NCBI GenBank assembly: GCA_025058515.1
Contig: JANXDW010000051.1
Coordinates: 1-34,370 of the forward strand
Source: Aigarchaeota archaeon
Lineage (GTDB): Archaea > Thermoproteota > Nitrososphaeria_A > Caldarchaeales > Wolframiiraptoraceae
Direction of reading: 5' to 3'
DNA length: 34,370 bases
Below, in pieces: positions 4,955-22,863 of this stretch. The translations under genes were made by a program, and so were the position numbers. Every line of letters begins with the position of its first letter. Positions within the stretch are counted from its first letter, which is position 1. Below the pieces are notes generated by a model, which ran no database searches, was not told where the DNA came from, and saw nothing but the letters and a program-made list of their open reading frames with translations.

Positions 4955-5100
4955 GACATTTAATAATCATAATCTTTTACTTAAGTCTTTCCACAAGAGC
5001 TTCTTTCTCAACATGTAAGATATTTCCAAGAATAAGATATTCTAAGTTTAACATTTCACAACAATTATTATTACTCAAGATAAAATTAATAAAGAGATTA

Positions 5101-5110
5101 TTTATAGATA
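5101..5110 (+). promoter_or_regulatory. TATA box for the 5129-6612 gene pair
   Basis: TTTATAGATA is centred about 24 bases before the GTG at 5129, the spacing expected for a leaderless archaeal transcript. No ribosome-binding site precedes this GTG, which agrees with a leaderless start. Confidence 0.45.
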
Positions 5111-5128
5111 TGTCGGTGGTCTACTTTT

Positions 5129-5431
5129 GTGTCACCAGTACTTGAGAAGAGAGATCTTCTCAAACCATGGGAAACATTTCTACCTTCTTTAAACGTTCTC
5201 AAGCTATGTGGAAAGGTATCTGAAGAGAGTTTTGTAAGATTACTTAAAGAAGTCTTTGGAGATATAGATTTGAAGAAAAAGTGGAAAGATCATTCGAATA
5301 CAGCTAGAGAGATTGTCATTGAAGAAGATATAAAGGAAAAGATTCTTCTCTCTATGATCGGTGAACACGTATCTGAGCAAGTCAAGGTTCTAGAGACTTA
5401 CCACCCGATATCTAAGTTAATGGAGGGGTGA
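5129..5431 (+). CDS. unrecognised 100-residue protein, translationally coupled to the PLP enzyme
   Basis: I do not recognise this protein. It is 100 residues, soluble and charged, with no signal peptide, membrane segment or metal-binding motif; a lone cysteine sits in LKLCGKVSEESF. The second half looks mostly helical. It starts with GTG at 5129, preceded by a TATA box at leaderless spacing. The frame ends inside the ribosome-binding site of the next gene: its TGA (5429-5431) lies between GGAGGGG and the downstream ATG. The two genes therefore form a coupled pair, which suggests a partner or accessory protein for the PLP enzyme. That role is inference from position only. Confidence 0.7.
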   Translation: MSPVLEKRDLLKPWETFLPSLNVLKLCGKVSEESFVRLLKEVFGDIDLKKKWKDHSNTAREIVIEEDIKEKILLSMIGEHVSEQVKVLETYHPISKLMEG

Positions 5432-5433
5432 TT

Positions 5434-6612
5434 ATGAAGCTAGTAGCTATAGATGAGGTTAGAAGTCTTCCTAGACCTCCTATTGAAGAACTTTTAGAAG
5501 ATATAGGAAAATTGTTAAAGAGTGGTAAGATTGAAGAAACTGTAGAAGTAGATGAAGATCTCAAGGTTAGCTTAACTCACTATAAATTTTTTCATGCATT
5601 AAAGGTCCTAGGAATAAAAAGGATCCCTGTAACTATTAATCGTACAGATAGAGTTGAGTATAGATTAGAAGACCTAGGGTTTGAGGAAGACTTAGAGAAC
5701 AATCCTCTAAGAGTATGTAGAAACATTAGTGAGCTGATTAAGTCTTGCTGGCCTACTCCTTTAATCTACCTCAAATCTCTCTCTAGTGATCTAAGCCAAG
5801 TCTGGGCTAAATTAGAGTACTTAAACCCATTCAGTAATAGTATTAAAGATAGGATTGGATGGTATATGCTCATAGATGCATTAGAGAATGATTCAAGACT
5901 TACCAGTAGTAGGCTAGTATATGAAGCTTCTTCAACTAATACGGGGATAGCTTTAACATGTATTAGCAAGAGCCTCGGACTCAAGACTAGGATATATCTT
6001 CCAAGCTCTGTTCAGAAGTGTAGTGATCTCTACTTGAAGATCCTTGGTTCAGAGGTAGTGAGAGTTCAAGAGCAGATAACGACTCAAGCACTAGAACGGG
6101 TTAAGGAAGATTCAAGAAGAGATAATGCAGTACATATCAACCAGTTTGAGAATGATGCAAACTTTATCTCTCATCTTAGATTTACAGCTAAAGAACTCGA
6201 TATCCAGTTGAAGAGGTCAGGATTGAAACCTAAAAGAATCGTATGTTCTCTCGGAACATCTGGACATGCTAGTGCAATATCTTTCTACTTCAAGAATAGA
6301 TATCATGGAGATTTGGAGATTGTAGGTGTGCAGCCAGCTAAGGGTGAAGTTATTCCCGGTATGAGAAGGGTTGAGACTGGTATGAAGTGGATACACCTTG
6401 TCGAGATAGATAGAATGGTTGAGGTAGATTATGAAGAAGCTCTTAAGGGTATGTTGAAGATCACTATCAATGAAGGCTTGCCAGTAGGGTTAAGTTCTGG
6501 AGCTGTAGTCGGATCTCTAGACAAGATTCCACCTATAGATGGAGTAACTATATTGATTATGCCAGACCACTTCTACAAATATTGTGAAGTCTTTAATTCT
6601 ACGATCTTATGA
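5434..6612 (+). CDS. cysteine synthase/cystathionine beta-synthase family PLP enzyme with ParB/SerK-like N-terminal domain
   Basis: Residues about 105-385 form a fold-type II PLP domain of the CysK/CBS family. The Schiff-base lysine is K138 in NPFSNSIKDR, SSTNTGIAL matches the substrate-binding TSGNTGIAL loop, and LGTSGHASA is at the phosphate-binding loop. Family members make cysteine, cystathionine or related products from (phospho- or acetyl-)serine. The first 70 residues are extra for CysK and resemble a ParB/Srx-like fold as in the ADP-dependent serine kinase SerK (IDEVRSLPRPPIEELLEDI ... ALKVLGIKRIPVTI), but the catalytic DGHHR of SerK reads THYKF, so kinase activity is doubtful. The ATG at 5434 is preferred over GTG 5428 because GGAGGGG lies five bases upstream. 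Confidence 0.85.
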   Translation: MKLVAIDEVRSLPRPPIEELLEDIGKLLKSGKIEETVEVDEDLKVSLTHYKFFHALKVLGIKRIPVTINRTDRVEYRLEDLGFEEDLENNPLRVCRNISELIKSCWPTPLIYLKSLSSDLSQVWAKLEYLNPFSNSIKDRIGWYMLIDALENDSRLTSSRLVYEASSTNTGIALTCISKSLGLKTRIYLPSSVQKCSDLYLKILGSEVVRVQEQITTQALERVKEDSRRDNAVHINQFENDANFISHLRFTAKELDIQLKRSGLKPKRIVCSLGTSGHASAISFYFKNRYHGDLEIVGVQPAKGEVIPGMRRVETGMKWIHLVEIDRMVEVDYEEALKGMLKITINEGLPVGLSSGAVVGSLDKIPPIDGVTILIMPDHFYKYCEVFNSTIL

Positions 6613-19709: not shown

Positions 19710-20114
19710 TTATTTTAATTTCTTCTTTATTAAAACTCTCTCTTCACTTATCTCTACCATGTCTCCATCTTCTATCAAGCTTATGTCTACTTTATCCACT
19801 GTCGGTATATTCGAGATGATTGCGCCTACTGCTACTATCGGTTCACAGAACTCATTAATAATCCCAAGTGGAGCTTTACCGTTCTTCTTAAGTCTATAGA
19901 GTATATATGAGCCTACAGTTGAGCCTTTCCCACATGGAAATACAAGTATCTTTCCAGAAATGCTTCTACCTTCTAACTGATGTCCTTTCTCTACTACTAC
20001 TCCAGTCTCTGGATCTACTCCACCGAAGAAGCTTATAGGCTCGACAGTCTTCAAAGCTTCTCCACATACCTCACCCCTCTTTATTATCCTCCCTCTAACT
20101 TCAATAAGCTTCAA
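19710..20114 (-). CDS. phosphomevalonate dehydratase small subunit (AcnX small subunit)
   Basis: This 134-residue swivelling-domain subunit pairs with the large AcnX subunit. It shows the family marks VEPISFFGGVDPETGVV and ILVFPCGKGSTVGSYILYRL. Archaeal AcnX complexes dehydrate (R)-5-phosphomevalonate to trans-anhydromevalonate 5-phosphate in the archaeal mevalonate pathway; bacterial relatives act on hydroxyproline derivatives. The archaeal context and the UbiD neighbour favour phosphomevalonate. It overlaps the large-subunit stop by four bases. Confidence 0.9.
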   Translation of the reverse strand: MKLIEVRGRIIKRGEVCGEALKTVEPISFFGGVDPETGVVVEKGHQLEGRSISGKILVFPCGKGSTVGSYILYRLKKNGKAPLGIINEFCEPIVAVGAIISNIPTVDKVDISLIEDGDMVEISEERVLIKKKLK

Positions 20115-21295
20115 TCTCTTACAGCCTCCTCCACCAGTTCACTTAACTTAGCAAGCTTGATGCTTAAATTGTTTAGATTCCTAGAGTACCATACACCTTT
20201 CACAGAGTTTGTTGCAATAGATCTTATATTCAGCTCGTTTATCGGTGCTACTATAGGGCATGTATCTGATAATATGGTGACCCCCAATCTTTCAAGCTTC
20301 TGATATACTCCAAGTTTCTTAGCTAAGGCTCCTACAGCTCTCGAGGTACATACCCACATCTTCTTCTTAACTACTCTATTTTCAAGCCTCTCAATCAACA
20401 TTATCAATTCTTCTAGTGAAGCATGAGGGCAGCCTATGAATATTAAATCAGGTTCAACATCATCATTGAGTTCTTCTGATGCATTCTCTAAATCACGGTC
20501 CGATACTTCTATCTCTTCAACTCTATCTTCTGGAGTTAAAGTATACTCTGGAGTTATTCCTTCTACATGAAACATGGGTGTTCCACTTATGCTTCCAAGA
20601 GCTGCTCCCAGAGCCTTTAACTCAGATTGATTAGCAGATCTTATCCCGGTGAATAATGGTATCCTCCCTTTAGATTGCTTTCCTACGACGTAGCCTAGTA
20701 ATGCGAAGTCATACTCATCTTCAAGGTTTGGGGATATTACTTTTATAGAGTATACTCTATTCTCCATTAGGTGGAGTCCATAGAAAGGTGTTCGACCTGT
20801 TAATGCTGCAGCTAATGCACTAGGTCCACCTTCTCTATTAGTTCTAGCACCGATTACAGAGTTTGCGTAGACAACTGCAGAACTCTCACTCCAAGCTATG
20901 TGTTCTGCGAATCTAGGCATGTTTTCAGCTAGGTATGGAGTACAGGTTAATGTAGGCTTAATCCCCATAGCTAGATATGCATCGATTACTCTCTTCTGCA
21001 TCTCTACAAAGTTCTCGCTTACTCCGATCTCTCTCCACTTCTCAAGATCTATCCCAGCAGGGTTTAAAGTTGTTTGAACTCTCACTCTCCCATCTTTAGA
21101 AAGGTCTTCCAACCACTCTAATCCAGCTTCTCCTAGATTCTTGTAGGAGACTCCTGAGACTTGAGCACTGGTTATAGGCACCATCTTCTCCGCTCCATAT
21201 ATTTCTCCAAGTGCTACAAGGATCTCCATGGCTACTTGAACTGCATGACCCATCTCCCCGGCCAGCATCTTCTCTTCTTCTCTAGTTAGATACAT
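20111..21295 (-). CDS. phosphomevalonate dehydratase large subunit (AcnX large subunit)
   Basis: This 394-residue aconitase-X catalytic subunit should hold an iron-sulfur cluster. Recognisable stretches are AQVSGVSYKNLGEAGLEWL, TLTCTPYL, the long conserved SESSAVVYANSVIGARTN with GGPSALAAALTGRTP, FIGCPHASLEEL and LSDTCPIVAPI. Cysteines in CTPYL, GCPH and DTCPI are the likely cluster ligands. GGTGA precedes the ATG by four bases. The upstream 168 bases separate it from the UbiD-type gene on the same strand; they contain no gene, only AT-rich sequence and a GAACTAGTTC palindrome at 21404-21413. Confidence 0.92.
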   Translation of the reverse strand: MYLTREEEKMLAGEMGHAVQVAMEILVALGEIYGAEKMVPITSAQVSGVSYKNLGEAGLEWLEDLSKDGRVRVQTTLNPAGIDLEKWREIGVSENFVEMQKRVIDAYLAMGIKPTLTCTPYLAENMPRFAEHIAWSESSAVVYANSVIGARTNREGGPSALAAALTGRTPFYGLHLMENRVYSIKVISPNLEDEYDFALLGYVVGKQSKGRIPLFTGIRSANQSELKALGAALGSISGTPMFHVEGITPEYTLTPEDRVEEIEVSDRDLENASEELNDDVEPDLIFIGCPHASLEELIMLIERLENRVVKKKMWVCTSRAVGALAKKLGVYQKLERLGVTILSDTCPIVAPINELNIRSIATNSVKGVWYSRNLNNLSIKLAKLSELVEEAVRD

Positions 21296-21463
21296 TCATT
21301 CACCACGCTAGATTCTTCAATTGGTCTTTTACTATCATCTAATCTCTGGATGGATTATATATAGCTTCACGATGAACACTGTGTAAAGTAGGTAGATGGT
21401 GTAGAACTAGTTCATGATGAGGTTTTCTATCTCTTAATAGATCTTTGAATTTTAAAATTCTCT

Positions 21464-22750
21464 CTATATCTCAGGTATTATAGCTTTCTTAAACTTTTCT
21501 TTATTCATGTAGAGTGGGATGGTTGCGTCTATGCCAGCTTTACAAGTAGTTCGAGTTATCTGGTCTGCTGAAGGATCTAGAGAAGACCCCTTCTCCCCAG
21601 GTTTAAGTACTAAATCTTTATCTAGTTGAGTTCTAGTAGATATGGCCCACTCTACGTCTTCCATGTCGTATATGTCTATGTCTTCATCTACTACTACAAC
21701 GTACTTTAAGCTTTCATGTCCTTTGAAAGCTGCTTCAATAGCTTTCTTCCCATCATCTTCATTCTTCTTCCTTATCTTCACAACAGCATTCAACCAACCT
21801 CCACTTCCAGGCGTCAGCCTAACATCTAAACAATCACATACTTTACTTACTTCATAGAATATCGTTATTTCTCTCGGCATCCCCATTAAGTTTTTATGCT
21901 CATATCCAGCTGGTAAAATGTACTGGAATATCGGGTTCCTTCTCATCGTGATACATCTAACCTCTATCACTCTCTCTTTCCTTACTATATCGTATGTTCC
22001 TAGAATATCTATGAAAGGCCCTTCATCAACTAGCTCATCTGTTATATAAGATTCTAATACTATTTCACATTCAGCTGGAACAAGTAGATCATTAGTTATT
22101 GTTTTAGCGTATTTTAATGGTTTTAGTCTTGAAGCTATTGCAAGCTCGCTTATACCAATATCTGTAGATATGGATGAAGATAGCATGAAGGCAGGATGGT
22201 TCCCTATCGTTATAGCTATCTCTCTATTACCTCTCTCAACGTATTTGTGTAGATGTCGTGGAACTATTCTAGCAGCTACCCTCTTCTTATCTAGTAGCAT
22301 AAGCCTATGGTAGCTAGCATTATATCCATACTCTTTATCGTAAGCAATCACTATTCCAGCAGATATATATGGAGCTCTATCGTTCAATCCAGTCCAGATG
22401 AATGGTAGTTTTGTTAAGTCTGGATCTTTGATTACAACTTCTTGACACGGAGGATCCTCTACGACCTCTACCTTTCCAGGATTCTCTATTGCTTCTATTA
22501 TCTTCCACTTTAATCTATCTATAGATGTGCCAATAGATTCTGCTAAGATACTTCTATCTGCACAGAGATTTCCTACTAGCTTAAAATTAGGATGCTCGAT
22601 TATATTGTGGAATAGTACGGGCTTCGGTTCAAGCTTCTTTAGTATAGACGGTATCTCAAATCTAGCCGAGACGGGCTTCTCCACTTCTTCTAACTTGCCT
22701 TCACTTCTCAGCTTACTCAGTATAGACCTTAGAGAAGAATCTGAAACCAT
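21464..22750 (-). CDS. UbiD-family decarboxylase, probable anhydromevalonate phosphate decarboxylase
   Basis: This 428-residue enzyme belongs to the UbiD family, whose members use prenylated FMN. Family sequence includes PVLFHNIIEHPNFKLVGNL, LPFIWTGLNDRAPYISAGI, and the acidic EIVLESYITDELVDEGPFI motif that supplies catalytic glutamates, then MRRNPIFQYILPAGYEHKNLMG. In archaea a UbiD homologue decarboxylates trans-anhydromevalonate 5-phosphate to isopentenyl phosphate. Its position directly before both AcnX subunits makes that the best call. Other UbiD substrates cannot be excluded, and a UbiX flavin prenyltransferase must lie elsewhere. ATG 22750 is used; TTG 22759 would add three residues. 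Confidence 0.88.
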   Translation of the reverse strand: MVSDSSLRSILSKLRSEGKLEEVEKPVSARFEIPSILKKLEPKPVLFHNIIEHPNFKLVGNLCADRSILAESIGTSIDRLKWKIIEAIENPGKVEVVEDPPCQEVVIKDPDLTKLPFIWTGLNDRAPYISAGIVIAYDKEYGYNASYHRLMLLDKKRVAARIVPRHLHKYVERGNREIAITIGNHPAFMLSSSISTDIGISELAIASRLKPLKYAKTITNDLLVPAECEIVLESYITDELVDEGPFIDILGTYDIVRKERVIEVRCITMRRNPIFQYILPAGYEHKNLMGMPREITIFYEVSKVCDCLDVRLTPGSGGWLNAVVKIRKKNEDDGKKAIEAAFKGHESLKYVVVVDEDIDIYDMEDVEWAISTRTQLDKDLVLKPGEKGSSLDPSADQITRTTCKAGIDATIPLYMNKEKFKKAIIPEI

Positions 22751-22863
22751 AATCTCCAAAAAATACCATTATCTCTAATTCTTATCTTTATCCAATCTTC
22801 TTACGGCATCCACCTACTAGTAATCATTATAAACTTCTACTGTGATTTCTACGTTGATTATAG

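Follow-up and report, generated by a model that had tools for sequence, protein, structure and literature searches.

The window analysed here is a 34,370-nucleotide stretch of DNA from a metagenome-assembled genome (MAG, 95% complete) of a hot-spring archaeon that most likely belongs to Geocrenenecus, a genus of the Caldarchaeales/Wolframiiraptoraceae described in the available text of PMC9246946. It contains two closely spaced plus-strand genes, the first encoding a 100-residue protein and the second a predicted O-phosphoserine sulfhydrylase (OPSS), whose features are collected in Table 1. The 100-aa ORF starts with GTG and ends in a TGA codon (5429–5431) that overlaps a GTG at 5428. A first-pass annotation, made from the sequence alone, had placed this stop codon in the ribosome-binding site of the next gene, and the TGA does lie inside or next to the Shine–Dalgarno stretch of OPSS. 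The sequence TTAATGGAGG at this site is common to the window and two relatives (L034 and L035), and TTGATGGAGG is found in a third (L036). The OPSS frame gives 392 residues from the ATG at 5434 and 394, two residues more, from the GTG at 5428; the former start is likelier because the relatives begin at its equivalent (MKLV...).

Table 1. Features of the two-gene locus, in window coordinates.
Feature	Position	Strand	Basis or remark
Remnant of serK, 100 aa	5129..5431	+	SerK ortholog by sequence; in-frame 44-codon deletion, heavy divergence
Start region of the remnant with its ribosome-binding site, GGTGGTCTACTTTTGTGTCA	5115..5134	+	DNA comparison with congeners
Deletion junction, between codons 50 and 51	5278..5279	+	relatives have PLLV...LDGHHR...VEVY here (44 codons)
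Shine–Dalgarno stretch GGAGGGG of the OPSS gene	5422..5428	+	sequence; within the 3' end of the serK remnant
Predicted O-phosphoserine sulfhydrylase (OPSS/CysO type), 392 aa	5434..6612	+	phmmer to A. pernix CysO 1wkv, E 1.3e-60
N-terminal pseudo-SerK domain (ParB/Srx fold), residues 1-82	5434..5679	+	AlphaFold2, Foldseek, VIA
PLP-dependent catalytic domain (PALP, PF00291)	5749..6519	+	E 1.8e-45
Codon of the PLP lysine, aligned with K127 of A. pernix OPSS	5845..5847	+	alignment to A. pernix CysO
Arg codon aligned with R297 of A. pernix OPSS (O-phosphoserine recognition)	6364..6366	+	alignment to A. pernix CysO

The comparison set comprises four other Geocrenenecus genomes, whose homologous contigs are labelled Candidatus Geocrenenecus (three species) or, for one MAG, 'Nitrososphaerales'; these labels are the basis for placing the window in the genus. 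The pair is followed by convergently oriented genes for ribosomal proteins, which resemble S9 and L13 in their translations, and upstream lies a divergent gene for a transporter-type binding protein. Synteny breaks just upstream of the 100-aa ORF (window 4955–5128): three of the four congeners (L004–L006) have a small RpoN-like gene there, and the window has the divergent binding-protein gene on that side instead.

We take the larger gene to be an archaeal OPSS, predicted to act on the O-phosphoserine route. Its closest PDB match is Aeropyrum pernix CysO, aligned by phmmer over window residues 53–389, with CysM and CysK far behind, and the PF00291 match spans residues 108–364 (numbered from GTG 5428). 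It is 61–67% identical to the OPSS of the four congeners. The two-domain layout is that of A. pernix OPSS (1wkv, 3vsc, 6l0p, 6l0q), and K127 and R297 are common to both proteins; a role of R297 in O-phosphoserine recognition is given in the available text of PMC5120207. The cysteine-synthase-type PLP enzyme proposed in the first-pass annotation thus fits the O-phosphoserine route, both of these residues being kept.

The extra N-terminal domain of this OPSS is conserved among its relatives in the alignment. From 36 aligned N-domains (that of the window and 35 of the 56 found in the scan described below), AlphaFold2 gives a model of residues 1–106 with a mean pLDDT of 85.1. Foldseek ranks SbnI and the free serine kinase SerK first (probability 1.00), followed by A. 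pernix OPSS and then by ParB/Noc and sulfiredoxin. By VIA-align, the domain superimposes on the Thermococcus kodakarensis free serine kinase (TK0378; 5x0b) with Z 11.9 and an rmsd of 1.8 over 81 residues, and on A. pernix OPSS with Z 9.4–9.6 (1wkv_A: Z 9.4, 74 residues, rmsd 2.2). Structure prediction of these residues had been set as a test of the earlier suggestion that about 70 extra residues are ParB/SerK-like, and the fold appears in residues 1–82, at a pLDDT of 85 and with the closeness to 5x0b just given.

The homology of this domain with SerK rests on SerK single-query and profile searches together with the VIA structure alignment. A single SerK query retrieves the OPSS N-domains of relatives directly (best E 2.6e-11). 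A profile of 30 SerKs matches the longer N-domains of related lineages with E down to 2e-20, the entire SerK domain being recognisable in them, including its C-terminal LPxxS/H part; the window N-domain is matched at E 0.001, and none of 500 shuffled sequences in that search did better than 0.48. In the reverse direction, a profile of OPSS N-domains matches PDB sequences weakly, the best being SbnI at E 0.005 amid unrelated matches.

The catalytic residues are gone from this domain. It lacks the HE motif with the catalytic E30 (T. kodakarensis SerK numbering) and DGHHR, whose columns read THYKF in an independent alignment, as in the first-pass annotation; none of the 36 aligned N-domains retains DGHHR. 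Because E30 and DGHHR have been lost, the domain is classed as a pseudokinase, and the suggestion that it is a relic of a SerK/ParB-like domain holds. An active serine kinase in residues 1–75 of OPSS, joined to the synthase, is accordingly very hard to credit: the fold matches SerK, and true kinase–pseudokinase–OPSS fusions occur in other archaea, but the motifs are absent here and DGHHR is absent from every aligned N-domain. In a tree of 88 domains (unrooted, 138 columns), kinases, both separate and fused, split from OPSS pseudo-domains with support of 97/98, which is consistent with a single origin of the pseudo-domain and a second, later fusion of a live kinase. The dead SerK domain is probably a docking or stability module, and it would probably dock live SerK. 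The N-terminal domain of 1wkv, whose crystal structure was released in 2005, finds an explanation as a dead copy of a kinase.

SbnI of Staphylococcus shares the fold of the window N-domain, and SbnA is a PALP enzyme like OPSS. Both SbnI and SbnA work with O-phosphoserine. An SbnA/SbnI-like siderophore-precursor system, or a cystathionine system, had been put forward for this locus; SbnI is indeed the best Foldseek match of the N-domain, and its annotated molecule name is that of an O-phosphoserine-making kinase. Such a system, or an SbnA/SbnI-like diaminopropionate one, is nevertheless highly improbable here. OPSS reaches no NCBIfam cut-off among the 25 families listed, with 95.6 bits for the SbnA model of the 2,3-diaminopropionate pathway (TIGR03945; cut-off 349.95) and 110.7 bits for the cystathionine beta-synthase model (TIGR01137; cut-off 510.25), both far under. 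Moreover, the closest structure is that of A. pernix OPSS, and the adjoining genes are ribosomal-protein-like, unlike the Staphylococcus genes, which belong to a siderophore pathway.

The nature of the 100-aa ORF becomes clear from the same slot in the congeners. In 4/4 of them, OPSS is immediately preceded by the gene for a short and apparently intact SerK (L034–L037), which has about 145–160 residues from a conserved GTG and contains HE and DGHHR. Conservation of the neighbour had been set as a test of the pairing, and the slot is kept throughout, there as an intact kinase. The congener gene matches T. kodakarensis SerK at E 3.7e-12, E30 and DGHHR both being present, and a profile of the congener type matches 5x0b at E 1.8e-21. 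The H, E and D-G-x-H-R residues are invariant across 17 SerKs, and E30 is the residue mutated in the E30A/E30Q SerK structures, according to PDB titles. T. kodakarensis SerK has 242 residues, whereas the SerKs adjacent to OPSS mostly have about 140–170 and lack the insert between its residues ~106 and ~203. This short serine kinase form, found in many Thermoproteota-related archaea and barely detected by Pfam, thereby gains a place and a partner.

By sequence comparison, the 100-aa ORF is orthologous to SerK but lacks the kinase core, and it is not a separate new family. It aligns with five SerKs (those of the four congeners and L038) at 24–33% identity, the congener kinases being 57–77% identical to one another. 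Alignment scores are 85–128, compared with means of 36–42 and maxima of 62–77 for shuffled sequences, and 0/1000 shuffles reach the observed score for each of the five. All five alignments show one long gap of 44 residues at the same place, between LK(K/M) and the W of SWRE/SWRN. The 30-SerK profile likewise matches the remnant in two collinear pieces, states 14–57 and 102–132; taken alone, this match is weak, at 7.7 bits compared with 5.0 for the best shuffle. The position of HE reads CG, and DGHHR falls within the deleted codons. Since the lost 44 codons held the nucleotide- and serine-handling core, the 100-aa protein cannot be a kinase. The deletion is known from one genome only; the remnant has diverged outside the gap too, which speaks against a simple gap in the assembly.

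The first-pass annotation had described this partner as matching nothing known. That description stands for single-sequence tools: Pfam and NCBIfam gave nothing useful, and a six-frame search of 101 genomes with the 100-aa protein matched one, its own. It falls once the protein is aligned to the SerK in the same slot of the congeners, and relaxing the search to E 1 brings up the congener kinases at E 0.0017–0.31. A MoaD/ThiS-type sulfur carrier was also considered for the 100-aa ORF and dropped, there being no family match and no terminal Gly-Gly.

The association of serK with OPSS extends well beyond the genus. A scan of species genomes returned 63 loci, of which 56 were classed as archaeal OPSS; five bacterial cysteine synthases (L127, L128, L129, L131, L132) and two partial loci (L123, L130) were left out of the classing. 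Among the loci, L097 and L099 lie on one contig, and L070–L073 come from the same genomes as G001–G004. A serK gene is directly upstream on the same strand at 16/56 loci and divergent from OPSS at six, while eight encode a fusion of kinase, pseudokinase and OPSS with a complete kinase domain, carrying HE and DGEHR (DGVHR in L103). At one further locus (L116), the fused kinase lacks its front half. At 25 of the 56 the fetched stretch contains no serK, an upper bound because some stretches end close upstream (200 bases at L107, 601 at L080, 628 at L094). SerK does not accompany OPSS in every genome, as none was found in G109 (L090). The kinase–synthase fusion proposed earlier for the window protein therefore exists elsewhere, at the eight loci mentioned, but not in the window. 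These natural fusions of kinase, pseudokinase and synthase make serine-to-cysteine substrate channelling directly testable.

Two of the fused genes have themselves lost kinase sequence. In L115:2929–4296 (+) the fused kinase is almost wholly excised in frame, and in L116:2698–4314 (+) the in-frame loss results from a different deletion. Both genomes retain a separate SerK. Counting the window remnant with L115 and L116, in-frame loss of the kinase core has occurred in three lineages or more.

Taken together, the locus is very probably a decayed form of a serK–OPSS unit for converting serine to cysteine in thermophilic archaea, its kinase dead and a stub of it kept, probably as a leader. In the live unit, SerK would make O-phosphoserine, from which OPSS with sulfide would yield cysteine; in the window species, the loss of 44 codons has left a dead kinase. 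The start of the stub, its open frame and the ribosome-binding site at its end are all kept, most simply because translating the stub feeds ribosomes to OPSS, and the stub is therefore probably retained as a translated leader. Its 20-nt start region is identical in L037, with one mismatch in L034 and two in L036, and has diverged in L035.

The stub may be asked whether it still does anything as a protein. Compared with L035, it differs at 42, 42 and 55 of 100 first, second and third codon positions, whereas OPSS compared with L004 shows 0.26, 0.16 and 0.46 differences per site; the divergence of the remnant is thus nearly neutral. The predicted model, built from six sequences, shows no confident fold (pLDDT 37.5). 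Under neutral decay by substitution alone, without indels, the frame stays open in 1.5–9.5% of runs across twelve simulations, so that its survival here is suggestive only. A working protein that binds OPSS at the pseudo-SerK domain, so as to regulate or stabilise the enzyme, would account for this open frame despite the heavy divergence. It would also suit the adjacency of kinase and pseudo-domain in one chain at the eight fusion loci, and the in-frame kinase losses of L115 and L116, though there the fusion itself forces the frame. We consider such a protein improbable, as second codon positions are as diverged as first, unlike those of a constrained protein, the model shows no confident fold, and the SerK kept elsewhere in the L115 and L116 genomes fits dispensability.

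Somewhat more plausible, if still unlikely, is a functionless pseudogene in decay whose frame is open by chance. The loss of the entire catalytic core, the near-neutral divergence, the lack of a predicted fold and the restriction of the deletion to one genome all agree with simple decay. Against it stand the start-region DNA, 20/20 identical to that of L037, and a frame that runs unbroken to a stop codon overlapping the OPSS ribosome-binding site, both of which the translated leader accommodates. A broader proposal, which we advance tentatively and hold to be doubtful, is that archaeal OPSS is a built-in kinase–pseudokinase channel: the dead SerK would dock a live SerK, whether a neighbour or part of the same chain, which would hand over O-phosphoserine, and dispensable kinase cores would have been excised in frame repeatedly, the shell being kept as a leader or regulatory stub.

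With the kinase of the decayed unit dead, O-phosphoserine would have to come from another source. No other SerK was found in the window genome by single-sequence search of the 95% complete MAG. A 17-row SerK profile detects the kinase in 4/4 congeners at E 5.5e-63 to 5.7e-59 and gives only one weak match in the window genome, at E 1.4e-4, to a ParB-type protein with DGGTR. A kinase may lie elsewhere in the genome, or the assembly may be at fault at serK. A SerA-like gene adjoins a class V aminotransferase gene in 5/5 genomes of the genus, the SerA-like matches staying below the TIGR01327 cut-off in all eight genomes searched. Given this pair and the lack of another detected SerK, O-phosphoserine plausibly derives from 3-phosphoglycerate. 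The SerA-like dehydrogenase and the aminotransferase would then be its only source, and cysteine in the window species should depend on this route. T. kodakarensis has both O-phosphoserine routes, according to the available text of PMC5120207. The loss of the kinase in one member of the genus thus predicts a switch of cysteine source from serine salvage to 3-phosphoglycerate.

The weakly matching ParB-like protein is a chromosomal one (L163:442–1302, minus strand; contig C5 of G000) with a relative in G004. Its long C-terminal part looks by eye like a helix-turn-helix region.

A SerK with a role in cysteine metabolism and an OPSS with a known structure are both already established. The window OPSS gene has a serK remnant in front of it, and those of its relatives an intact serK. 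According to the available text of PMC5120207, close homologs of SerK occur in only four genera, and in Desulfurococcales serK lies close to serA and to aminotransferase genes; serK beside OPSS is not among the arrangements reported there. Fusions of the ParB-CTPase fold, in which a ParB-type fold is joined to other domains, are surveyed in PMC12704722 (2025); SerK is named in the available text, and the terms pyridoxal, PALP, sulfhydrylase and cysteine synthase are absent from the main text. Its datasets may possibly hold a PF02195–PF00291 row. In the literature covered, including the available text of PMC5120207, PMC12704722, PMC5424206 and PMC9246946, no paper was found on a serK–OPSS operon, a SerK-derived OPSS domain or their fusion; since subscription papers and datasets lay outside this search, such an absence is no proof of novelty.

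Other OPSS genes show a different kind of N-terminal partner. L125:1991–3607 (+) is a second OPSS paralog in which a ThiS/MoaD-type sulfur carrier (PF02597, E 5e-17) is joined to a pseudo-SerK domain and OPSS; the same genome also encodes a kinase–pseudokinase–OPSS fusion in a 588-aa frame. The ThiS/MoaD–OPSS fusion recalls the CysO–CysM thiocarboxylate route. In L014:1108–3528 (+), the N-terminus of OPSS (...VIFIPAVSGGSQ) still resembles the C-terminal end of a ThiS/MoaD carrier, and a ThiF/MoeB-like gene lies directly downstream.

Elsewhere in the window, adjacent minus-strand genes at 19710–22759 resemble, from their translations, the two subunits of an aconitase-X-type enzyme and a UbiD-type decarboxylase. 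Read in this way, they would belong to the archaeal mevalonate pathway.
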